Assembly (NCBI GenBank): GCA_021817145.1
Contig: JAKAVV010000015.1
Location: 1-62,201, forward strand
From: a bacterium
GTDB lineage: Bacteria; Vulcanimicrobiota; JABDET01
Direction: 5' to 3'
Length of the DNA: 62,201 bases
Shown: positions 4,995 through 58,601 of the stretch, one piece after another
Position numbering within the stretch: the first letter of the stretch is position 1
How the letters are laid out: every line of letters starts with the position of its first letter
Notes under the pieces: generated by a model
Databases searched by the model: none
The model's input: the letters and a program-made list of their open reading frames with translations, nothing else
What the model was told of the DNA's origin: nothing
Position numbers and translations under genes: made by a program

Positions 4995-5058
4995 GTTAAC
5001 AAATTATTAACAATTGTAAATTTTCCTTCACAAAGATGTAAATTTTCCTTTACAATTT
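4995..5058. promoter_or_regulatory. Operator-like motif copy 1 (ATTAACAATTGTAAATTTT)
   Basis: Between the divergent genes at 4931 and 5098 lie GTTAACAAATTATT (4995-5008), ATTAACAATTGTAAATTTT (5006-5024), a second TGTAAATTTTCCTT (5037-5050; first copy 5015-5028, 22 bp apart) and the inverted half TTTACAATTT (5049-5058). Closely matching sequences occur only upstream of three other predicted surface-protein genes (24868-24890 and 42092-42131). Likely a binding site for a shared regulator of the 3684 gene; it could also affect the gene at 5098. Confidence 0.55.
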
Positions 5059-14215: not shown

Positions 14216-15051
14216 TATCGTCCTCCAACAAAGGTGGTAGTGGAAGTAGAAGAGGTAGAGGTGCTGCTGGTAGAAGTGCTGCTGGTGGAGGAAGTGGAGG
14301 TGGAGGAGGTGGAAGTGGAAGAAGTAGAAGTGCTGCTGGTAGAAGAGGTAGAGGTGGAGGAGGTGGAAGTGGAAGAAGTAGAAGTGCTGCTGGTAGAAGA
14401 GGTAGAGGTGGAGGAAGTGGAAGTGGAAGAAGTAGAAGTGCTGCTGGTAGAAGAGGTAGAGGTGGAGGAAGTGGAAGTGGTGCTGGTAGAGGTAGAAGAG
14501 GTTGTTGTAGAGGTAGGGTAAGTGCATGGGAGAACATTGGGGTTTAGGGGGAACCATCCTGATGGCCTTGCAAACCTGGTTATTAGGTCATAGTTCTCTG
14601 TTTTTCCGCTGGATGGGATATTCCAGGCAAGATGGATGACAAGTTTCTTACTTGCTGATGCACTGCTTAAAGCGTTTTCTGTTTCAGGATAGGCAATAAT
14701 ATAACTTTTTTGCGGGTTAAAGTGGTTATTCTGGAAAAAAGAAGCATAAGTATAAGGATTAGAGGTGCTGTATAAATACTGCAGATTACTGAAAACATCA
14801 TCTGTATTTGTGAGGCAAGTAGAACAAAGCAGTTGGGAGCAGGGGGAAGGATTACAAGGGGGTATATAAAGTCTGGATTCTTCTCTTAACTTTTCCATGA
14901 GAGCTTGTGAAAATAAGGAGGCTTTTAGAGATTCTTTCTGTTGATAAGAATATCTTGTGGAAGTGATAAAAACAGGAATAACATAAAGGAAGATCAGCCC
15001 TAAAATTAGGACAGAAATCATCAATTCTAGAAAACTGATTCCATTTTTCAT
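14215..15051 (-). CDS. Minor pilin (PilV-like) with Ser/Thr repeat tail
   Basis: 278 residues. The start at the ATG complementary to 15049-15051 is chosen because a strong promoter (15077-15105) would start the transcript near 15070; the TTG at 15105 lies in its -35 box. The N-terminus MKNGISFLELMISVLILGLIFLY is a prepilin helix with Glu at +5. After a globular part (residues about 40-170 with CNPSPCSQLLCSTC) the protein ends in about 95 residues made only of Ser and Thr, in 18-residue units. Such tails are typical O-glycosylation or linker regions. The operon downstream encodes sugar-modifying enzymes, which fits a glycosylated pilin. Confidence 0.83.
   Translation of the reverse strand: MKNGISFLELMISVLILGLIFLYVIPVFITSTRYSYQQKESLKASLFSQALMEKLREESRLYIPPCNPSPCSQLLCSTCLTNTDDVFSNLQYLYSTSNPYTYASFFQNNHFNPQKSYIIAYPETENALSSASASKKLVIHLAWNIPSSGKTENYDLITRFARPSGWFPLNPNVLPCTYPTSTTTSSTSTSTTSTSSTSTSSTSSTSTSSTSTSSTSTSSTSSTSTSSTSTSSTSTSSTSSTSTSSTSTSSTSTSSTSSTSTSSTSTSSTSTTTFVGGR
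14231..14514. repeat. 54-bp tandem repeat coding for a Ser/Thr tail
   Basis: Roughly three copies of a 54-bp unit containing GTGCTGCTGGTAGAAG on the plus strand, itself built from 6- and 9-bp sub-repeats. It encodes 18-residue Ser/Thr units in the pilin gene at 14215. The unit is a multiple of 3, so copy-number change would keep the frame. Long open frames read from other frames here are by-products. Confidence 0.9.
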
Positions 15052-19236: not shown

Positions 19237-19393
19237 GTCAGTTTTTATTTGGGATTGGATTAGAGGTCAGGATGACCTCTTTCTTCTCCAAACAAAAACT
19301 GTCAGGGATGTCAGTTTTTATTTGGGATTGGATTAGAGGTCAGGATGACCTCTTTCTTCTCCAAACAAAAACTGTCAGGGATGTCAGTTTTTA
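19237..19393. repeat. Tandem hairpin element, family member A (two 73-bp units plus 11-bp stub)
   Basis: Units at 19237-19309 and 19310-19382, then the first 11 bases again at 19383-19393. Each unit folds on itself: outer arms AGTTTTTATTTGG and CCAAACAAAAACT (one A-C mismatch), inner hairpin GAGGTCA-GGA-TGACCTC. It lies between the divergent genes at 19155 and 19430. A sequence relative with the same fold and compensatory stem changes occurs at 54062-54240. Confidence 0.9.
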
Positions 19394-19429
19394 AAGGAAA
19401 GTATTGATGCTGTTAGAATAGAAAAGGAA

Positions 19430-39982: not shown

Positions 39983-42025
39983 CTATCGAATGAAGGTGAA
40001 ATTCACAGGTCTTGCCTCTATATGGTTTCCGTCTTGATTAGCATAATATTGATAATAAGCTGCTTGAGTTGAATCATTGAACGCTAGAGTTGACTCTGTT
40101 TGGGCGTTTTGAGAATCCGCATTGGCTTGAGCATTCGCCTGGTTTTCTTCATTGGTATAGCTATTTGCTTGAATATTGTCACTGGCATATTGATTGTTAT
40201 AAGTGTTGTATTGGCTGAGGTAATTATTAGCGGAAGCGGTGTCGCTGTTGTATTGGCTGAGGTAATTATTAGCGGAAGCGGTATCGCTGTTGTATTGGCT
40301 GAGGTAATTATTAGCGGAAGCGGTATCGCTGTTGTATTGGCTGAGGTAATTGTTGGCAGCTGCGGTGTCATTCTGATAAACTAAATATTCTGAATTGGCA
40401 TTAGTCCCTTCAGAATTAGCCAAGGTCTGATAATAGGATGAGGAGGAGAGATTATTCTGATAAGCGGAGTATTCGTTATTACCCCAGCTTAAATACTGTT
40501 GATATCCAGTATAATCGTTTCCAGCGATATTGAACCAATAATTAGCGTTTCCAAACCAAGAATCAGCCACTCCTTGATAGAGATCTGCCCAGTATTGGTA
40601 ATTGTTGGCTGTTCCATTGTAATAATTGGCATAGTATTGATCGTAATTTGCCCAGTATTGATAATTATCAGCGATTCCATAATAATTATCAGCGATTCCC
40701 TGGTCATTACTGGCTATCCCATTGTAATAGTTCCCCCACCATTGGTTATTATTTCCCCAACTTTGATAAACGTCAGCCCAGTATTGGTAATTGTTGGCTG
40801 TTCCGGAGTAATAATTGGCTAGATAAGCGTACCATCCATTATAGACCCATTCTTGAGTCATATACCATCCTACACTCCAGTACCACCCCCAATTCCAGTA
40901 TCCATAATAATTTTGTGTCCATTCCCATGAAACAACCCATTCCGTTGTCCAGTATCCACCACAGGACCATCCGCAAGACTGGTAAACCCAAATTTGATGC
41001 CATACAGGGCGATAAGCCCAGTACCACCCTTGAGTCCAGTACCATCCTAAAACTTCATGCCATCCATAAGTCCATGCCCATTCTAACTGCCAGATCTGGC
41101 TTCTGTAATAGTTAGCTAGAGATGAGTAATAGTTTGATAGATTTCTATCATTGTTTGCTACTCCATAATAATAATTTGCGGTAGAAAAATAGCTGCTTGC
41201 GATTCCTCGATAATAGTTCGCCTGCCATTGATAATTGTTTCCAATTCCTCGATAATAATTGGCTGTTCCTTGGTTTGAATTCGCCCAAGCTTGATAATTT
41301 CTGGCAGTGGAATAGTAATAATTTGCCCACCATTGGTCGCCACTAGCAGTTTGTTGATAGTAGTTTCCGATTGATTCGTCATGGTTAGCGGTCCCTGAAG
41401 CATTTTGGTATTGTGAATAATACGAATTAGCCGCTGCTTCATCGCTTTGATATTGTGAATAATCATTATTAGCCGCGTTTTTGTAAGAATTGGCTTGGGA
41501 TTGGTACTGAGACTGCGCAGAAAGGTCATTTTTGTAATTCTGATAAGCGGTATTGGCATTAGAGGTTGCCGTGTTAGAGTTAGACTTAGCGGTATTGGCT
41601 GCAGAGGTAGCGCTGTTATAGTTAGATTGAGCGGTATTGGCTGCAGAGGTAGCGCTGTTATAGTTAGAGTGAGCGGTATTGGCGTTAGAGTTGGCGTTTT
41701 CGTAGTTAGATTGAGCTGTATTGGCATTTTGTTTATCTTGATTCGCTTTGCTCTTATAATTAGAAGCTTGGGTGGCATCTTGGTTGGCTGCATTCTTTTC
41801 TTGGTTGGCTGCCTGGCTGTCCTTGTTGGCTGCAATTGAAGCCTGTTGGGCTGCCTGATTTTGCTGTTCAGCCAAGTTTTGGTAATATTGACCCCAGTTT
41901 ACAGCTGAATAGGCGGGAAGGGTTGAAGCGCTTATAAAGGCGAGCAGCAAAATAGAAGCGCTGCCTCGTTTTAACCTTTGCCAAAATCTGTCTCTTTTTC
42001 TTGTGTTAGATTTACCCTTAAACAT
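39983..42025 (-). CDS. Secreted heptad-repeat protein extremely rich in Tyr, Trp, Asn, Gln and Ala
   Basis: 680 residues with GGGAGG 7 bp before the ATG. Signal peptide (GSASILLLAFISASTLPAYSA). Almost the whole mature chain follows a 7-residue period. N-terminal part (45-210): 14-residue units like ANTAQSNYNSATSA. Middle (210-310 and 390-510): units such as ANYYNGT and ADLYQGV, with Ala at one core position and Tyr/Trp at the other. Centre (about 315-390): Trp/Tyr-rich non-repeated stretch (WTYGWHEVLGWYWTQGWYW) with one CGWSCGG. C-terminal part: four 14-residue units SQYNSDTASANNYL. This suggests a long antiparallel coiled-coil hairpin with an aromatic tip. No family recognised. It has its own terminator and a double operator motif upstream. 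Confidence 0.85.
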   Translation of the reverse strand: MFKGKSNTRKRDRFWQRLKRGSASILLLAFISASTLPAYSAVNWGQYYQNLAEQQNQAAQQASIAANKDSQAANQEKNAANQDATQASNYKSKANQDKQNANTAQSNYENANSNANTAHSNYNSATSAANTAQSNYNSATSAANTAKSNSNTATSNANTAYQNYKNDLSAQSQYQSQANSYKNAANNDYSQYQSDEAAANSYYSQYQNASGTANHDESIGNYYQQTASGDQWWANYYYSTARNYQAWANSNQGTANYYRGIGNNYQWQANYYRGIASSYFSTANYYYGVANNDRNLSNYYSSLANYYRSQIWQLEWAWTYGWHEVLGWYWTQGWYWAYRPVWHQIWVYQSCGWSCGGYWTTEWVVSWEWTQNYYGYWNWGWYWSVGWYMTQEWVYNGWYAYLANYYSGTANNYQYWADVYQSWGNNNQWWGNYYNGIASNDQGIADNYYGIADNYQYWANYDQYYANYYNGTANNYQYWADLYQGVADSWFGNANYWFNIAGNDYTGYQQYLSWGNNEYSAYQNNLSSSSYYQTLANSEGTNANSEYLVYQNDTAAANNYLSQYNSDTASANNYLSQYNSDTASANNYLSQYNSDTASANNYLSQYNTYNNQYASDNIQANSYTNEENQANAQANADSQNAQTESTLAFNDSTQAAYYQYYANQDGNHIEARPVNFTFIR
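40208..40375. repeat. 42-bp tandem repeats (four copies)
   Basis: Units start at 40208, 40250, 40292 and 40334 with GTATTGGCTGAGGTAATT; the first three are nearly identical and the last has diverged. Each encodes 14 residues (two heptads) of the aromatic-repeat protein. Near-identity at DNA level indicates recent duplication. Confidence 0.9.
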
Positions 42026-42091
42026 AAATCTACCTCCCAGGTCCTGGATAAATTCATTATATCACTAATTTGTAAAAAAGTGTTTGCCAAA

Positions 42092-42131
42092 TTGTTAACA
42101 ATTGTAAATTTTTGTTAACAATTGTAAATTT
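42092..42131. promoter_or_regulatory. Operator-like motif copies 3 and 4 (perfect 20-bp tandem)
   Basis: TTGTTAACAATTGTAAATTT occurs at 42092-42111 and again, identical, at 42112-42131. The first copy overlaps the 14-bp palindrome AATTGTTAACAATT. It lies 67 bp upstream of the aromatic-repeat gene start (minus strand) and downstream of the stop of the convergent-side gene at 42167, so it can only serve the former. Related motifs: 4995-5058 and 24868-24890. Confidence 0.65.
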
Positions 42132-42166
42132 TTTACTCTTTGCAATCTTGCTTGCAGCTCAGGAAA

Positions 42167-51252: not shown

Positions 51253-52577
51253 TGCGGTATTTTGTATTGTTTTTAATCTTTGTGTTTTGTTTTTCTTCTG
51301 CTTATCCTGAACCATCCCATACCACAAACCATGGCAGTCATTCCTCTGTTAAAGTTTACTCTTCCATTACTTTAAAACAGTGTGAAAAGATCGCTTTATC
51401 TCAACAGCCCCAGCTTTTGATCGCGCGAGCAAAAGTTTTAGAACAAAAAGGGGCTCTTGAGCTGGCAAAAAGCCAGGTTTATCCTTCGCTGTTAGGAACA
51501 GGGGAATTTGCCCATAATACTCCAACCTTGATTGCTGGATTTGGCCCTTTTGTGATTCCAATTGACTCGTCTGATAGTTTTAATACTCTTCTTGAACTGC
51601 AGTATCCGCTTTATAATGGAGGCAGATTGGAGAATCAAGTTAACTTTGCTCAAAAAGGTTTATCTAAAAGTAAGTTTCAAGAAAAAGAGGTTAAACTTAC
51701 AGTTCTTTTAAATACACGGATTTTTTATTACAAGGCTGTTTTAGCAAAAGAGATTTTCAGGGCGGACCGCTGGGATTATAATGCTCAAGCTTTTAATGAA
51801 GATTCTTCCAAAGAGCTTTTTAAAACAGGTCAAGTTCCTAAATTGATTTACAGGAATTCTGTGATTTTGTTGAGAAGAGCAAAAATTAAAGTCTCTGAAG
51901 CGATTTTAGATTATAAAAATTCTCTGGATAATCTTGCTTTTGCAATTGGATTAGATCCCGAACAAATAAAAGGAGTCAAAGGGAATCTTCTCAGACCTTT
52001 TATTTTTCCATCTTATCATCGCTTTGTTCAAAAAGCTTATGAACAAAGAGCTTTGATTAAAGAGGATAAAGCTAAACTACAGCAGGCTCGCATTCAGCTT
52101 CAGATAGCAGAAGCAGTCAATTCACCTAATATTTCTCTTTTTGCCGCAGAAACTTACTCCACCCGTCCTTTTGTTCCTTTTTTTCCTTATGTTCAAAATC
52201 AGGCGGGAATTAATATTTCCTGGCCCTTTCATTGGGGAGAAAAGGGGGGTGAAGTGGAAAAAGCGGCGGCTGGAATTAAGGATGCTGAAGAACAGTTAAG
52301 ACTTGATAAGGAACAGATCGCGGATCAAATTAAAGTTGCTTACAATAATGCTGAACAAGCATTTAAATCAGCCCAATCCAGCATGAAAAATGTGCAGGCG
52401 GGCAGAAAAAGTTTTGATAATGCTCAAGCCGCTTTTGCTAACCAATTGATTGACAGCGCCCAGTTAGATGAAACAACCAGTTTGCTGGATCAAGCTCAAA
52501 GCGATTATTTGGATTCACTTTACAATTACGAAGTTTCTTTGTCTCAATTGAAATATGAGGAAGGGGAATTGAAATGA
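51249..52577 (+). CDS. TolC-family outer-membrane channel protein (3)
   Basis: 442 residues from the ATG overlapping the upstream TGA; a much longer open frame upstream is out of frame with macB and not real. Signal peptide YFVLFLIFVFCFSSAYPE. ITLKQCEKIALSQQPQLLIARAKVLEQKGALELAKSQVYPSLLG is the first helical repeat and KEQIADQIKVAYNNAEQAFKSAQSSMKNVQAGRKSFDNAQAAF the second. Less similar to the other two TolC proteins (it lacks their YGW segment). Followed by the cytochrome with a 4-bp overlap. Confidence 0.9.
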   Translation: MMRYFVLFLIFVFCFSSAYPEPSHTTNHGSHSSVKVYSSITLKQCEKIALSQQPQLLIARAKVLEQKGALELAKSQVYPSLLGTGEFAHNTPTLIAGFGPFVIPIDSSDSFNTLLELQYPLYNGGRLENQVNFAQKGLSKSKFQEKEVKLTVLLNTRIFYYKAVLAKEIFRADRWDYNAQAFNEDSSKELFKTGQVPKLIYRNSVILLRRAKIKVSEAILDYKNSLDNLAFAIGLDPEQIKGVKGNLLRPFIFPSYHRFVQKAYEQRALIKEDKAKLQQARIQLQIAEAVNSPNISLFAAETYSTRPFVPFFPYVQNQAGINISWPFHWGEKGGEVEKAAAGIKDAEEQLRLDKEQIADQIKVAYNNAEQAFKSAQSSMKNVQAGRKSFDNAQAAFANQLIDSAQLDETTSLLDQAQSDYLDSLYNYEVSLSQLKYEEGELK

Positions 52578-54256
52578 GGTTTTTGGCAAAACGGTTCCTG
52601 CTCTTTTTTTTAGCGGCTGGGTTTGTTGGTTTTGCGGTTTTTGGAGAATCTATTCTTATGCCGCACAGGAGTCAGAAGGCTCGATTCCCTCACCAAAATT
52701 CCAATGCTTGTTTAAAGTGCCATGTTCTTTCCGGATGGCATGAAAGTCAGCATTATCAAGAGTTTTCTCGCCTTTTAAAAGAAGGAAAATTTCCTCAGTA
52801 TCACCATAATGCCTGCTTGTTTTGTCATATCAGACATGCTCTTCCTGTCCCCCCCCGAATCACTCGTTTTGCTTTTTTAAGACATGCCACAATTGGGGGG
52901 GTGACTGCTGTTCATACTTTATGCCAAAAGTGCCATACTTCTCCTGAACGTCATCCCATTGTTCCTGCCCCAGATATTCAAGATCAATTTGAAAAGTTTT
53001 ATGTTGGTGGTTCAGCCATGCCTTTGATTTTCCCTGGGCATAAGGTCTTTATCGGAAAACATCCCCAGGAAAGTGTTCTCTTAGGAAGCAAACTGAATGA
53101 ATTTCCTCATATTGAATGCACAGACTGTCATAATCCTCATTTATGCAATCGTCAAGAACCTCTGCGAGGGGCAAAAGGAATTATGAATATTGGAGGGAAA
53201 CCGGTGGCTGTCGGGTATGGAACAACCCATCCAATGATGAACCCTCCTGTTTATGCCATCTGTTTTCGATGCCATGGACCAACGTACAAATGGATTACAC
53301 CTTACCCTGATCCCCCTTATGATATGTTTCCCCCCGGATATACCAATAAGTTTAAGGAGTTTAACCCGAAGAGTCACATGTTTTTACAGCCGAAGTTAAG
53401 AAATACTTCCTGGATGCCTGTGGTTTTCCCTGGGAAAAACAGATCTAAATGGCTGAACTGGCAGTTAAAAACAGCGACTCATGGTGAATTAACTGTGCAT
53501 TCTACGATTGAATGCACAGACTGCCATAACAATAACGCTTTTTCAAAAGTTCATGGGAGAGTTTCACTTTCGATGGGAACTTATAAAGATCCGGTTGGAC
53601 CTCATGGTTCAATTCATCATCGGATTTTAAGAGCAAAATACACTTTTAAAGTTGGGACAGCGACTCGCTCCCCATTTACCCACTATAATCCTAAGGATTT
53701 CGCTTTGTGTTTTAACTGTCATAATGAAAAAGCTTTTGATGGGGGGAGATGGGACAAACATACAGGGTTTTATTCTAAGACTTTTGGGAATCTTCATTAT
53801 CTGCATTTAACAGGGGATGGTGGTAAACTTCCTGTTTATGAATCTTGTATGGAATGTCATTATGATGTTCACAGCAATGTCATGACAGATACCACTTTAT
53901 TTATTTTCCATGGGATTGCTCCTAAAAATGAGGATACTCATTTGATCTGGTTTTATCCAGGGGTGAAAGGACTTGGGAATAATCCTTATCCTGAGTGGAT
54001 TAAAACAGCAGTGCGCGCTACCTGTCTTTTAGTCTGTCATGATCATGTTATGAATTTTCACTATTCGGGACCAGATTTGAGGCATGGAAGCCGAACACCT
54101 CTCCGAACAAGAACTGACAGGAGGTCAAGTTCTTATTCGGGACCGGATTTGAGGCATGGAAGCCGAACACCTCTCCGAACAAGAACTGACAGGAGGTTAA
54201 GTTCTTATTCGGGACCGGATTTGAGGCATGGAAGGCATGGGAGGCATGGAAAATGA
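52574..54256 (+). CDS. Periplasmic multihaem c-type cytochrome with repeat-derived tail
   Basis: 560 residues. Signal peptide at 1-24 (RFLLFFLAAGFVGFAVFGES). Eight CxxCH haem sites at residues 46, 81, 117, 182, 230, 314, 379 and 425, and one CxxxCH (CLLVCH) at 484. Many extra His residues suggest bis-His ligation. The family carries electrons across the periplasm or to outer-membrane partners. Residues 498-560 are in-frame units of a 72-bp hairpin repeat (SGPDLRHGSRTPLR) and are very basic, unlike the rest. Its place between tolC and emrA, with 4-bp overlaps on both sides, is unusual: electron carrier and export pumps in one transcript. Confidence 0.9.
   Translation: MRFLAKRFLLFFLAAGFVGFAVFGESILMPHRSQKARFPHQNSNACLKCHVLSGWHESQHYQEFSRLLKEGKFPQYHHNACLFCHIRHALPVPPRITRFAFLRHATIGGVTAVHTLCQKCHTSPERHPIVPAPDIQDQFEKFYVGGSAMPLIFPGHKVFIGKHPQESVLLGSKLNEFPHIECTDCHNPHLCNRQEPLRGAKGIMNIGGKPVAVGYGTTHPMMNPPVYAICFRCHGPTYKWITPYPDPPYDMFPPGYTNKFKEFNPKSHMFLQPKLRNTSWMPVVFPGKNRSKWLNWQLKTATHGELTVHSTIECTDCHNNNAFSKVHGRVSLSMGTYKDPVGPHGSIHHRILRAKYTFKVGTATRSPFTHYNPKDFALCFNCHNEKAFDGGRWDKHTGFYSKTFGNLHYLHLTGDGGKLPVYESCMECHYDVHSNVMTDTTLFIFHGIAPKNEDTHLIWFYPGVKGLGNNPYPEWIKTAVRATCLLVCHDHVMNFHYSGPDLRHGSRTPLRTRTDRRSSSYSGPDLRHGSRTPLRTRTDRRLSSYSGPDLRHGRHGRHGK
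54062..54240. repeat. Tandem hairpin element, family member B (72-bp period, inside the cytochrome gene)
   Basis: Three units, aligned at TATTCGGGACC (54062, 54134, 54206); the first lacks the 5' arm and the third the 3' arm. A full unit has outer arms AGTTCTTATTCGG and CCGAACAAGAACT and the inner stems GAGG/CCTC and GGC/GCC. The sequence is a relative of the element at 19237-19393, with two paired T-A to C-G changes in the outer stem. The period is divisible by 3, so the cytochrome frame stays open. Confidence 0.85.
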
Positions 54257-55473
54257 AAGAAGCATTGAAGAAATTTTCGTACGTTGTTTTAGGTGTTGTT
54301 ATTATCGGGCTGATTCTTTATGGAATTGACCGCTATTTTTTTGCGGGCAGGGTTTCAACAGAAGATGCCCGGGTTGACAGTCATCTTGTGTTTGTAGGAC
54401 CTAGGATTTCAGGGAAGGTCATAAAGGTTCTGGTTCATGATCATGAATTGGTAAAACCAGGACAGCCGATTGTTCTCTTAAGTCCTGCTGATTATAAAGC
54501 AAAACTTCAAGCAGCGGAGTTCAATTTGAAGCGTTTGGAAAAAACGCTTGCAGCGGACCGTTTAAGTGTGCCGATAAGCCGTATTTCCACCTCAGGAACC
54601 ATGAATAGAGTTGGAGCCATGCTGTTAGCAGCTGGATCAAATCAAGAGAAATTGAATCGCGTTGTGGCTCAAGTAAGATCTAGAATTATTCAATTAAAGG
54701 CCGATCTGATTTCTGCGCGGTCTCGGTATGATTTAGCAAAATCCAATTATGCTCGGATGAAGCTTTTAATTCGGAATTATATTGCTTCTCAAGAGCAGTA
54801 TGATTCTTTCAAAACCCAGTATGAAAACGCAAAAGCGGATTTGATTTCAGCGAAAGCTCGATTAGCCTCAGCTAGAGAAGAGTTAAGCCAGCAGTTAGCT
54901 GCCCTTCAAGAGGTTAAATATCAAGTCAAAGCAGCAAGAGCTCAAGTTTTTGCTGCTTCAGCAGGACCTGCTCAGGTCCTTATGCAAAAACAAAAAGTGG
55001 CAGCAGATGAACAGGCGGTTAAACAGGCGGAAGCTCTAGCCCATCTGGCTAAATTACAGTTATCTTATACAACGGTAAAGGCTCCTGTTGAAGGAATTGT
55101 GACCAGACGTCAAGTGACTGTAGGGGATGTGGTGGCAAGAGGTCAAACTCTCCTGATTTTGGCTCCTATAGGAAAAAATCTTTGGGTCAAAGCCGATTTT
55201 AGAGAAACTGCTCTGACTCAGATGAAACCCGGTGATAAGGTTAGCATTGCCGTTGATTCTTTCCCTGGCAGAGTTTTTCAGGGAGCCGTTAATTCTATCA
55301 GTGGAGCAACAGGAGCGGCCACAAGTCTTTTTCCTCCTGAGAATGCCAGTGGGAATTTCGTTAAAATTGTTCAGAGAGTTCCTGTTAAAATTACCTTTAA
55401 TTCAGGTCAAAATTTGAAGGGACTCTTAACCGGCATGTCTGCTGAAGTAACTATTTTTCTTCATTCGAAATGA
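54253..55473 (+). CDS. EmrA/HlyD-family membrane-fusion protein
   Basis: 406 residues. One N-terminal membrane helix (FSYVVLGVVIIGLILYGIDRYFF), then the EmrA signature STEDARVDSHLVFVGPRISGKVIKVLVHDHELVKPGQPIVLLSPADYKAKL, a long coiled-coil hairpin (about 90-260) and LSYTTVKAPVEGIVTRRQVTVGDVVARGQTLLILAP with the beta barrel LWVKADFRETALTQMKPGDKVSIAVDSFPGR. It bridges an MFS exporter to an outer-membrane channel. The start overlaps the cytochrome stop; the end overlaps the emrB gene. Confidence 0.92.
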   Translation: MKEALKKFSYVVLGVVIIGLILYGIDRYFFAGRVSTEDARVDSHLVFVGPRISGKVIKVLVHDHELVKPGQPIVLLSPADYKAKLQAAEFNLKRLEKTLAADRLSVPISRISTSGTMNRVGAMLLAAGSNQEKLNRVVAQVRSRIIQLKADLISARSRYDLAKSNYARMKLLIRNYIASQEQYDSFKTQYENAKADLISAKARLASAREELSQQLAALQEVKYQVKAARAQVFAASAGPAQVLMQKQKVAADEQAVKQAEALAHLAKLQLSYTTVKAPVEGIVTRRQVTVGDVVARGQTLLILAPIGKNLWVKADFRETALTQMKPGDKVSIAVDSFPGRVFQGAVNSISGATGAATSLFPPENASGNFVKIVQRVPVKITFNSGQNLKGLLTGMSAEVTIFLHSK

Positions 55474-57014
55474 GAAAGGTCAGCCCCTGGATCATTACTT
55501 TTGCGGTCATGTTAGGAACTTCTATTGAAGTTCTGGACACTTCTATTGCCAATGTTGCTTTACCTCATATTGCAGGGAGTCTTTCTGTAACTCCGGATGA
55601 GGCAACGTGGGTCTTAACCAGTTATCTGATTTCAAATGGGATTGTTCTGCCCATTGCTGCCTGGCTGTCCAGGAGGTTTGGAAGGAAGAGATATTTTATC
55701 GCAAGCATCATTATTTTTACGATTTCTTCTGCTTTGTGCGGGCTTGCTCCAAGCTTGAGTTTCCTTATTTTTTTTAGAGTTTTGCAGGGATTGGGTGGAG
55801 GAGGGCTTCAGCCTTCCAGTCAGGCAATCCTACTGGAAACTTTCCCTTTGGAAAAAAGAGGGCAGGGGATGGCTGCTTATGGTTTAGGGATTGTGATGGC
55901 TCCTATGCTTGGTCCAGTGATAGGCGGCTGGATCACAGATCATTATACCTGGCGCTGGATCTTTTATGTGAATGTTCCGATCGGAATTATCGCTGTTCTG
56001 CTTATCTCTTTATTTGTTTTCGATCCTCATTATTTAGAAAGGGTAAAAGAACCGGTTGATTTTATGGGATTAGGGTTTCTTGCCATTGGGATAGCCTTTC
56101 TGCAGTACTGTCTTGACAAGGGAGAACAAAAAGGCTGGCTTTCTTCTCATCTCATTACAACCTTTTTCATCATTTCCGCGATTGGCTTATTCTTTTTTAT
56201 TGTATGGGAATTGATTGTCCCTAAGCCAATTACAGATTTGAGAATTTTTAAAGATCGAACTTTTTTAGCTGGCTGCCTTCTGGTTACTTTTTTAATGCAA
56301 GGACTTTACGCAAACCTTGTGGCAGTCCCTCTTTTCCTTCAATTATTGATAGGATATACAGCAACACAAGCAGGTTTAGCTGTTTTTCCAAGAGGATTGG
56401 GAACTTTTATTGGGATGCCATTAACTGGATTTTTTTTGATGAAACATTTCGATTCCAGATATTTAATCGCGATTGGAGGGATTGGAGCGGGAATTTCTAT
56501 TTTTGTTCTCTCTTATTTGAATCTGGATATTACTTTTTGGAATATTTTCTGGCCCCAATTCCTGCAAGGGCTCTCTATGTCCCTTGTTTTTACTCCATTA
56601 GCAACGGTTACTTATGCGTTTATTCCTAAAGAGAAGTTAGGGAATGCCACCAGTTTATGGGCATTGATTCGAAATATCGGGGCTTCTATTGGAATTTCCA
56701 TTGCAGCCACTTTGCTGCAGCAGCAAGCTCAAACCCATCAAGCAGCTCTGGTTCGGCATTTAACTCCTGGTTCTCCTGTTCTTTCCTCACGACTCCAGAA
56801 CCTTTCTCATTATTTTCTCTTTCAAGGGTTTACTCATGCGCAGTCTCAAATCATGGCAAAAGCGGGAATTTTTTCGCAGCTGCTGACTCAGGCAAATCTT
56901 TTATCCTATCTGGATAACTTTCGCATTTTCGGTTTGATTTTTCTTCCGTTTATTCCCATTATTTTTATGATGAAAAAGCCTCCCATACAAAAAGGGAGTA
57001 TGACGGTAGAATAG
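55470..57014 (+). CDS. DHA2-family MFS exporter (EmrB-like, 1)
   Basis: 514 residues, 14 membrane segments. TSIEVLDTSIANVALPHIAGSLSVTPDEATWVLTSYLISNGIVLPIAAWLSRRFGRKR is the DHA2 motif A and D1 region; LQGLGGGGLQPSSQAILLETFPLEKRGQGMA is motif B/C. Proton-driven drug or metabolite export with EmrA and TolC. The end carries a periplasmic loop (AQTHQAALVRHLTPGSPV) typical of EmrB. Overlaps emrA by 4 bp. Confidence 0.94.
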   Translation: MRKVSPWIITFAVMLGTSIEVLDTSIANVALPHIAGSLSVTPDEATWVLTSYLISNGIVLPIAAWLSRRFGRKRYFIASIIIFTISSALCGLAPSLSFLIFFRVLQGLGGGGLQPSSQAILLETFPLEKRGQGMAAYGLGIVMAPMLGPVIGGWITDHYTWRWIFYVNVPIGIIAVLLISLFVFDPHYLERVKEPVDFMGLGFLAIGIAFLQYCLDKGEQKGWLSSHLITTFFIISAIGLFFFIVWELIVPKPITDLRIFKDRTFLAGCLLVTFLMQGLYANLVAVPLFLQLLIGYTATQAGLAVFPRGLGTFIGMPLTGFFLMKHFDSRYLIAIGGIGAGISIFVLSYLNLDITFWNIFWPQFLQGLSMSLVFTPLATVTYAFIPKEKLGNATSLWALIRNIGASIGISIAATLLQQQAQTHQAALVRHLTPGSPVLSSRLQNLSHYFLFQGFTHAQSQIMAKAGIFSQLLTQANLLSYLDNFRIFGLIFLPFIPIIFMMKKPPIQKGSMTVE

Positions 57015-57065
57015 CCTCTTTCCAGTTTATGTGAATAGGGCGGGGGGGGAAGATTTCAAGATAAA

Positions 57066-58601
57066 ATGAAAAAAATCAACCCCTGGATTGTGGTATTTTC
57101 AGTTCTTTTAGGAACTTCTATTGAAATGCTGGATACCACGATTGCCAATATTGCCCTTCCTCATATTGCAGGCAGCCTTTCAGTAACCCCTGATGAAGCA
57201 ACCTGGGTTTTGACCAGTTATTTAATTTCGAATGGGATTGTTCTGCCTATTGCTGCCTGGCTGTCAGGGAGATTCGGAAGAAAAAGGTATTTTTTGTCCA
57301 GTCTTATCCTTTTTATGATCTCTTCTGCTTTGTGCGGGCTTGCGCCAAGTTTGTCCTGGCTTATTGTTTTTAGAATTTTTCAAGGGCTTGGAGGAGGAGG
57401 ACTGCAGCCTACCAGCAATGCCATTCTCCTTGAAACATTTCCAGTGGAAAAAAGAGGGCAGGCTGTTTCAATTTATGGATTGGCCATTATGCTGTTCCCT
57501 ATGATGGGTCCGCTTCTTGGAGGCTGGATCACAGATCATTATACCTGGCGCTGGATTTTTTACATCAATATTCCGATCGGAATTTTATCGCTTTTACTGG
57601 TCAGTCTGTTTTTGTTTGATCCACCTTATTTGAAAAGGATTAAGGATCCTATTGATTATTTAGGACTAGGTTTTTTAATCATTGGGATCGCTTTTCTGCA
57701 GTACTGTTTAGATAAGGGGGAAGAAAAGGGATGGCTTTCCTCCCATTTAATTATCCTATTCTTTATTATTTCCGCAGTGGGTTTGTTTTTCTTTGTGATT
57801 TGGGAGCTTTTGACCCCAAAACCTATTGTGGATTTAAGAATTTTGAAGGATCGGACGTTTATGATTGGATGTATTCTGGTTATTTTTTTATTTCAAGGTT
57901 TGTTTGCCACTCTTGTCACAATACCTCTTTATTTGCAGCTCCTGCTTGGATATACAGCCTATCAAGCAGGAATAGCGACTCTTCCAAGAGGGATTGGCAC
58001 ACTTATCGGAATGCCGATCACAGGTTTTGTTTTATTAAGTTATTTTGATGCTCGATTTTTAATGGCAGTAGGGGCTGTTGGAGCCGGAATATCTACTTTT
58101 TTCCTATCTTTTTTAAATCTTCATATCGGGTATTGGAATCTCTTCTGGCCCCAATTCTTTTTGGGATTGTCTCTCCCTCTTATTTTTGCTCCTCTCCAAA
58201 CCATGACGTATGGGGAGATCTCAAAAGAGAAAATGGGGGCTGCCACAAGTCTGAGGGCAATGATTCGAAATATTGGCTCCTCGATTGGAATTTCAATTGC
58301 CACGACCCTTCTCCAGGAGAAAGCCCAAGCTCATCAAACCTCACTAACGCAGCATTTAAACCCTGGCTCTCCTCTGGTTTCATCCCAAATCCAGGGCTTA
58401 TCTCAATATTTTCTGCTGCATGGATATTCTTTGTCTCAATCCTTAGGAATGGCAGAAGGGAGAGTTTTTTCTCAACTTGCAGCACAGGCAGAGTTTTTAT
58501 CTTATTTAGATAATTTCCGTTTTTTTGCGCTTTTTTTTATCCCTTTTATTCTGCTCGTGTTTTTTATGAAAAAACTTCCGAAACAGAAGAGGGGGGCATA
58601 A
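57066..58601 (+). CDS. DHA2-family MFS exporter (EmrB-like, 2)
   Basis: 511 residues, a close paralogue of the preceding gene (same start pattern NPWIVVFSVLLGTSIEMLDTTIANIALPHIAGSLSVTPDEATW and the same C-terminal AQAHQTSLTQHLNPGSPL), so the pair arose by tandem duplication. Clear divergence across the whole length suggests that both are kept for different substrates. It is 51 bp downstream and could share the single EmrA. Last gene before the change in base composition. Confidence 0.93.
   Translation: MKKINPWIVVFSVLLGTSIEMLDTTIANIALPHIAGSLSVTPDEATWVLTSYLISNGIVLPIAAWLSGRFGRKRYFLSSLILFMISSALCGLAPSLSWLIVFRIFQGLGGGGLQPTSNAILLETFPVEKRGQAVSIYGLAIMLFPMMGPLLGGWITDHYTWRWIFYINIPIGILSLLLVSLFLFDPPYLKRIKDPIDYLGLGFLIIGIAFLQYCLDKGEEKGWLSSHLIILFFIISAVGLFFFVIWELLTPKPIVDLRILKDRTFMIGCILVIFLFQGLFATLVTIPLYLQLLLGYTAYQAGIATLPRGIGTLIGMPITGFVLLSYFDARFLMAVGAVGAGISTFFLSFLNLHIGYWNLFWPQFFLGLSLPLIFAPLQTMTYGEISKEKMGAATSLRAMIRNIGSSIGISIATTLLQEKAQAHQTSLTQHLNPGSPLVSSQIQGLSQYFLLHGYSLSQSLGMAEGRVFSQLAAQAEFLSYLDNFRFFALFFIPFILLVFFMKKLPKQKRGA

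Follow-up and report, generated by a model that had tools for sequence, protein, structure and literature searches.

The window considered here (the whole stretch of 62,201 nucleotides that was analysed) contains two tandem arrays of a unit of about 73 bp. This unit is probably a mobile DNA element, non-autonomous and moved as a folded single strand, much as REP sequences and members of the IS200/IS605 family are. As judged from the comparison of its copies, it seems to work like a REP-type element, and matches no described family that we found. The spread of REP-like repeats is an open question, in which families lacking a transposase are the hard cases, and this element offers a target rule, empty sites, a kept mismatch and loop, and arrays of modular hairpins, which make its mechanism testable.

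Structure of the two arrays

The canonical strand of the element, defined as the one reading TAAG-AAATG-ACATCC..., is the minus strand at both arrays of the window. Array 1 (19237-19393, minus strand) is intergenic and comprises two full identical units and a left-end arm (2.2 copies of a 73-bp unit with 100% match according to TRF; matches of the covariance model R1, described below, at 19243-19324 and 19316-19397). It is flanked by two divergent genes, coding for a PD40 beta-propeller protein (PF07676; 18199-19161, minus strand) and an amino acid permease (PF13520; 19430-21097, plus strand). Array 2 (54059-54240, minus strand) lies within a coding region and contains two full units and a degraded third one (R1 matches at 54059-54139 and 54131-54211); TRF reports a 72-bp unit at 54062-54234, in 2.4 copies with 98% match, and the left (canonical) end of this array is broken and rearranged.

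Each unit is 72-75 bp long and formed by two consecutive hairpins, A then B, both having TCC in their loops in the same orientation, and separated by a near-invariant TTGTT. Hairpin A, for example AAGAAATG-ACATCCRTGC-CATTTCTT, runs into TTGTT, and hairpin B reads TTGTTYGG-AGA-GG..inner stem-TCC-stem..CC-AAAC-CCRAATAA. In the array 1 unit adjoining the permease gene, sequence and predicted folds place hairpin A at 19367-19392 (AAAAACTGACATCCCTGACAGTTTTT on the minus strand, loop TCC), and hairpin B, also supported by outer-stem covariation, at 19318-19368 (TTGTTTGG ... CCAAATAA on the minus strand, inner stem AGAGGTCA/TGACCTCT, loop TCC). In the second unit, the sequence places hairpins A and B at 19294-19319 and 19245-19295, respectively (both on the minus strand). 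The TAA at the left end of the array (19391-19393, minus strand) is not a stop codon, and the congeneric genome has CCTTTAAAC at the aligned place.

The initial annotation had described a single hairpin per unit, whose outer arms at 19 kb (AGTTTTTATTTGG, 19240-19252, and CCAAACAAAAACT, 19288-19300) are correctly quoted; however, the long arm corresponds to hairpin B extended by the mutually complementary arms of hairpin A. The two T-A to C-G double changes that it reported between the arrays, and the A-C mismatch common to both, are likewise correct by sequence. In contrast, the GAGG/CCTC inner stem is not shared as described, being part of the 8-bp stem AGAGGTCA/TGACCTCT at 19 kb, whereas the predicted fold at 54 kb uses GGC/GCC. 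The fold of the 19-kb unit is more stable than all of 200 shuffled sequences on both strands, and that of the 54-kb unit than 200/200 on the minus strand and 195/200 on the plus strand, with z-scores of -6.7 and -5.0, respectively, on the minus strand versus -3.7 and -2.3 on the plus strand. The A-C mismatch of the plus strand is a G-T wobble on the minus strand, the better-folding one at both arrays.

Covariation of the stems

Two paired changes between two loci are, on their own, weak evidence of selection on the fold, and it is the alignment of 25 units (the same 25 from which R1 was built) that makes the pairing decisive. In this alignment, 87% of the paired cells are complementary and 16 of the 26 pairs undergo two-sided changes, which amount to 86 cells versus 24.1 +- 4.8 in shuffled controls (reached in 0 of 500), all slid controls remaining far below. 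The outer stem of hairpin B (TTGTTYGG/CCRAATAA) is 98.7% paired, with compensatory changes, and its G-T pair is kept in 24/25 units; hairpin A also often keeps a mismatch, whose wobble falls on the opposite strand from that of hairpin B. Nine copies from two related genomes, with stems much further diverged, give 41 two-sided cells versus 14.2 +- 2.9 (0/500) in an alignment fitted to the model. The TCC loop is largely kept while the stems vary. The selection for the folded form proposed in the initial annotation is supported, and neither of the two outcomes that it named as refuting appeared: further copies exist in the genome, and stem changes are paired in the larger alignment.

Copies within and beyond the genome

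The search with R1 covered the genome of the window itself (2.66 Mb, 97% complete), that of a congener, and that of a member of another genus of the same family (67% complete). Far from being limited to the two loci initially noticed, the element counts about 45 units in its own genome, distributed over about 30 places, and BLAST searches of this genome with the two arrays return 19 and 12 matches. The congener has five units and the other genus four, all divergent, and 55 further genomes from the phylum have none. An exact pattern of the core finds no match in 84,980 species genomes (among which the own genome is possibly not included) or in viral contigs, nor does a distant blastn search against phages and plasmids, and low-stringency BLAST searches for an autonomous copy yield fragments only. 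No Rfam family scores above its gathering threshold, and the freely readable literature on bacterial double-hairpin elements at stop codons returned work on REP sequences and mitochondrial parallels, not this family.

Arrays differ in their internal composition. Several are 98-100% homogeneous, while in others the A and B modules have been exchanged independently: L082 and L093 share the same B with a different A, and L006 and L002 a similar A with a different B. Identical units within an array are what slippage is expected to produce, and mosaic arrays what is expected of repeated insertion or exchange. The divergent copies of the other genus (L103:78-255, L104:1890-1972 and L105:3001-3082) lie beside or within tRNA-like sequences, the unit at L104 interrupting a partial tRNA-like copy near the D-arm, after GGATA, and the target of these copies may differ from the TAA described below.

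Insertion sites and the target motif

Orthologous places in the congener were found through flanking genes. The cleanest empty site is the rpsM-rpsK junction, where the congener reads GCGCTAAATAATAAAGGGGG (GCGCTAAATAAT|AAAGGGGG), and where the own genome has one unit between TAAT and AAAGGGGG. Other sites empty in the congener are C10a (NTP transferase), C19a (M23 peptidase), C19b (AI-2E transporter), C26, C29, C37, C28, C32b, C1a, and those of both window arrays; the alignment is ambiguous at C10b and a few other sites. Insertions are dated by this single congener, so that loss from it is possible at single sites. A TAA, TGA or TAG is already present at the element start in the empty sites, the start of array 2 being lost. 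Within the own genome, nearly all intact left ends have a TAA or TGA ahead of hairpin A, in flanks reading RTAAG or TGAG that are variable further upstream, while complete right ends are AATAA-like ((R)AATAA) regardless of the following sequence, which indicates that AATAA belongs to the element and the left TAA to the target. Read from these alignments, the element is inserted immediately 3' of a TAA, and sometimes of a TGA or TAG, that was already there. No consistent target duplication was found at the clean empty sites, where short common motifs blur the exact ends.

At seven sites (C10a, C17a, C19a, C19b, C20, C26 and C29), the TAA or TGA is the exact stop codon of the upstream gene, and C38, C1c and C30a2, the last a solitary hairpin A, probably belong here too. 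The strict count (7/30) exceeds the 8.6% expected from RTAA motifs adjoining intergenic DNA, as delimited by a simple ORF caller (p = 0.012), and so does the wider one (10/31, p = 0.0002). The simplest cause of these sites is the tolerance of insertions that preserve the stop codon. Core genes (rpsM, flagellin) have repeatedly received insertions at their stop codons. Array 2 illustrates another outcome, the creation of a new protein tail: it lies in frame at the 3' end of a doubled-CXXCH cytochrome-like gene (52574-54256, plus strand; PF09699, ORF), and the frame stays open through its 72-bp units (72 = 3 x 24), so that the protein gains a tail of some 60 residues. In the congener, the cytochrome-like gene lacks the array, and the protein stops a few codons past the insertion point.

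Alternative explanations

Strong stem covariation is also what would be expected of a structured RNA, whose fold would be selected in the transcript as a regulatory or 3'-UTR element (mRNA stabiliser, attenuator or small RNA). The 7-10 copies located directly at stop codons would then lie in 3'-UTRs, and TTGTT, which pairs with either side, could allow two exclusive folds. We nevertheless consider this reading unlikely. Relative to the gene upstream, the copies run either way (about 17 in the same direction and 9-10 not, gene calls being rough), copies are also found between divergent genes, antisense to genes and within them, and most aligned sites are empty in the congener, which leaves no conserved regulatory target. 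The wobble pairs of hairpin B and those of hairpin A favour opposite strands, so that neither strand is consistently the better RNA. Rfam offers no match for an RNA either, and the small structured RNA suggested by the initial annotation loses ground on the same points, a small-RNA function being unlikely because of the mixed orientation and the antisense or intragenic copies. A further reading, in which the CAGGATG-like loops that both hairpins carry on the non-canonical strand would sequester CsrA (RsmA), as a sponge, recalls the CsrB repeats, which carry CAGGATG-like loops. The genome does have two csrA genes and fliW, one copy of the element lies between flagellin and fliW, and the loop GGA is kept while stems change, even in some copies of the other genus. 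However, conserved loops are equally expected of a transposase substrate, the mRNA at stop-codon sites carries the complement UCC and not GGA, one copy of the congener (L098) lacks the motif in both loops, and the Rfam CsrB model gives 10.2 bits (E 0.79), where the cut-off is 71. We regard the sponge as very improbable.

Paired changes may also arise mechanically and without selection, by tandem slippage and by quasi-palindrome correction through template switching, an established source of such changes, and the arrays that are 98-100% homogeneous are as slippage gives. This leaves unexplained the roughly 30 places with empty sites, the TAA rule and the kept loop, and template-switch correction would remove the G-T mismatch, which is instead retained in nearly every unit; we hold it to be highly improbable. 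A classical MITE, moved by a DDE transposase, would likewise be small, non-coding, dispersed and associated with empty sites, but the two ends of the unit are not inverted copies of each other (GAAATG... on the left, ...CCCAAATAA on the right), and the clean empty sites show no consistent target duplication, so that this origin is very unlikely. Mixed orientation and intragenic copies, for their part, fit a selfish DNA element, and of the two natures proposed in the initial annotation, it is the mobile hairpin that gains support from the empty sites and dispersed copies.

Proposed mechanism and comparison with known systems

For a mobile element moved as folded single-stranded DNA, TTGTT would act as an internal guide, pairing with the right-end AATAA and with the RTAA of the left flank. 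The former pairing covaries among the 25 units, and the latter would combine Watson-Crick and wobble pairs. A single-strand endonuclease supplied in trans could then cut at the guide-paired points. Because the element itself has AATAA at its 3' end, insertion recreates the target, and older units would receive new ones at their AATAA end. Head-to-tail, partly mosaic arrays would be accounted for in this way, and slippage may subsequently multiply and homogenise the arrayed units. The guide hypothesis predicts targets from the sequence of the element. Units with altered guides (TTGCT, TTCTT) show no clear corresponding shift in target.

A search for the REP-type transposase, as suggested in the initial annotation, found none: the Y1 transposase (PF01797) is absent from the own genome, the congener and the other genus. 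The same search detects it in 8 of the 18 genomes of the set, as well as in 5 controls, and other members of the phylum do carry it. A search for Y2 (IS91-type) transposases gave no match, the controls likewise remaining without one. It is conceivable, though we put it forward tentatively and with more doubt than confidence, that a REP-like element is moved here by an enzyme outside the Y1 (RAYT/IS200) family, with one guide, TTGTT, serving both the right end AATAA and the target RTAA, each insertion rebuilding the target, and stop codons acting as safe landing sites. The lineage being small (three genomes of one family), the missing enzyme can be sought by elimination.

The resemblance to REP sequences, BIMEs and REPINs associated with TnpA_REP (RAYT) extends to small imperfect palindromes that keep a mismatch and a loop and whose stems undergo compensatory changes, to clusters that are mosaic and tandem, to an intergenic location with some intragenic copies, and to the supply of stop codons to neighbouring genes (PMC3116915, PMC3733652, PMC8266576). 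TnpA_REP needs both mismatch and loop (PMC8266576), and GTAG REPs frequently provide the ORFs next to them with a stop codon (PMC3733652). A small imperfect palindrome in many intergenic copies, as used to define GTAG-class REPs, is also what is seen here (about 45 units, about 30 places). However, there is no conserved GTAG (GTRG) at the 5' hairpin foot, nor a CGTC tag, the element ends in AATAA and sits after TAA, and Y1_Tnp is absent from the genome and its two relatives; unlike in REPINs, hairpins A and B have the same orientation and the same TCC loop, and form no inverted pair. The statement of the initial annotation that no named family fits holds for the missing REP tag and Y1 transposase, but not for behaviour, which is of the REP/IS200-IS605 type (empty sites, location 3' of a short motif, tandem mosaic arrays, stop codons, kept mismatch and loop).

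In IS200/IS605 elements, a target tetranucleotide lies 5' of the element, and a guide near the hairpin foot and a final tetranucleotide are found (PMC6006769). Folded ends, a short 5' target, the lack of clear duplication, and right-end bases comparable to the target are common to both, and TTGTT is a candidate counterpart of the base-paired guide (PMC6006769). In contrast, the present element contains no gene, its candidate guide lies between the hairpins, no Y1 enzyme was found, and there is no lagging-strand bias of the kind typical of IS200/IS605 (14/30 sites on the G-rich strand, p 0.86, local GC skew being a poor indicator of the direction of replication). CGTC-tagged REPs and Rickettsia palindromic elements (RPE) are also palindromic repeats without a dedicated transposase, some of them in frame in genes (PMC3733652). 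They differ from the present element, which has no CGTC tag, a two-hairpin unit, a TAA target and tandem arrays. Mycobacterial MIRU likewise form small tandem repeats where genes meet and leave stop codons intact, but they occupy places where a stop and a start codon overlap and are accompanied by short target duplications, whereas this element has a hairpin pair, a TAA motif and no clear duplication. Finally, in the mitochondria of fungi and sponges, double-hairpin elements and repetitive hairpin elements share with the present one the two hairpins, the dispersed distribution, the lack of a known enzyme and, for the Allomyces elements, the lack of reported flanking duplications (PMC2800124). 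They differ in being organellar, and the passages describing them mention no TAA rule.

Other features of the window and genome

In a tree of RpsK, the organism falls next to Candidatus Melainabacteria, weakly supported (93/66), and the collection of named genomes contains no close relative. The two csrA genes are located at L106:1917-2156 and L107:1803-2156, one beside a histidine kinase and a response regulator downstream of ftsZ, and the second immediately next to a flagellin gene and close to a short transposase-like ORF. Within the window, two paralogous neighbours following an HlyD-like gene (55468-55767 and 57064-57363) share 79% identity across their first 300 bases or so, and look like a duplicated efflux transporter. 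A minus-strand gene at 39983-42025 (680 aa) consists mostly of 21/42-bp repeats (for example 40204-40351 and 41546-41726), and its repetitive protein is likely to vary in length. Purine-rich repeats of 15-69 bp at 14239-14540 fall in overlapping ORFs on both strands, one of which codes for a Ser/Gly/Arg-rich stretch. A short intergenic repeat, TTGTTAACAATTGTAAATTT, occurs at 42088-42133 and 5000-5033 (88% alike), and TTAACAATTTGTTCAACATTG, which lies beside L080 and is conserved in the congener, resembles it; this repeat is possibly a regulatory site.
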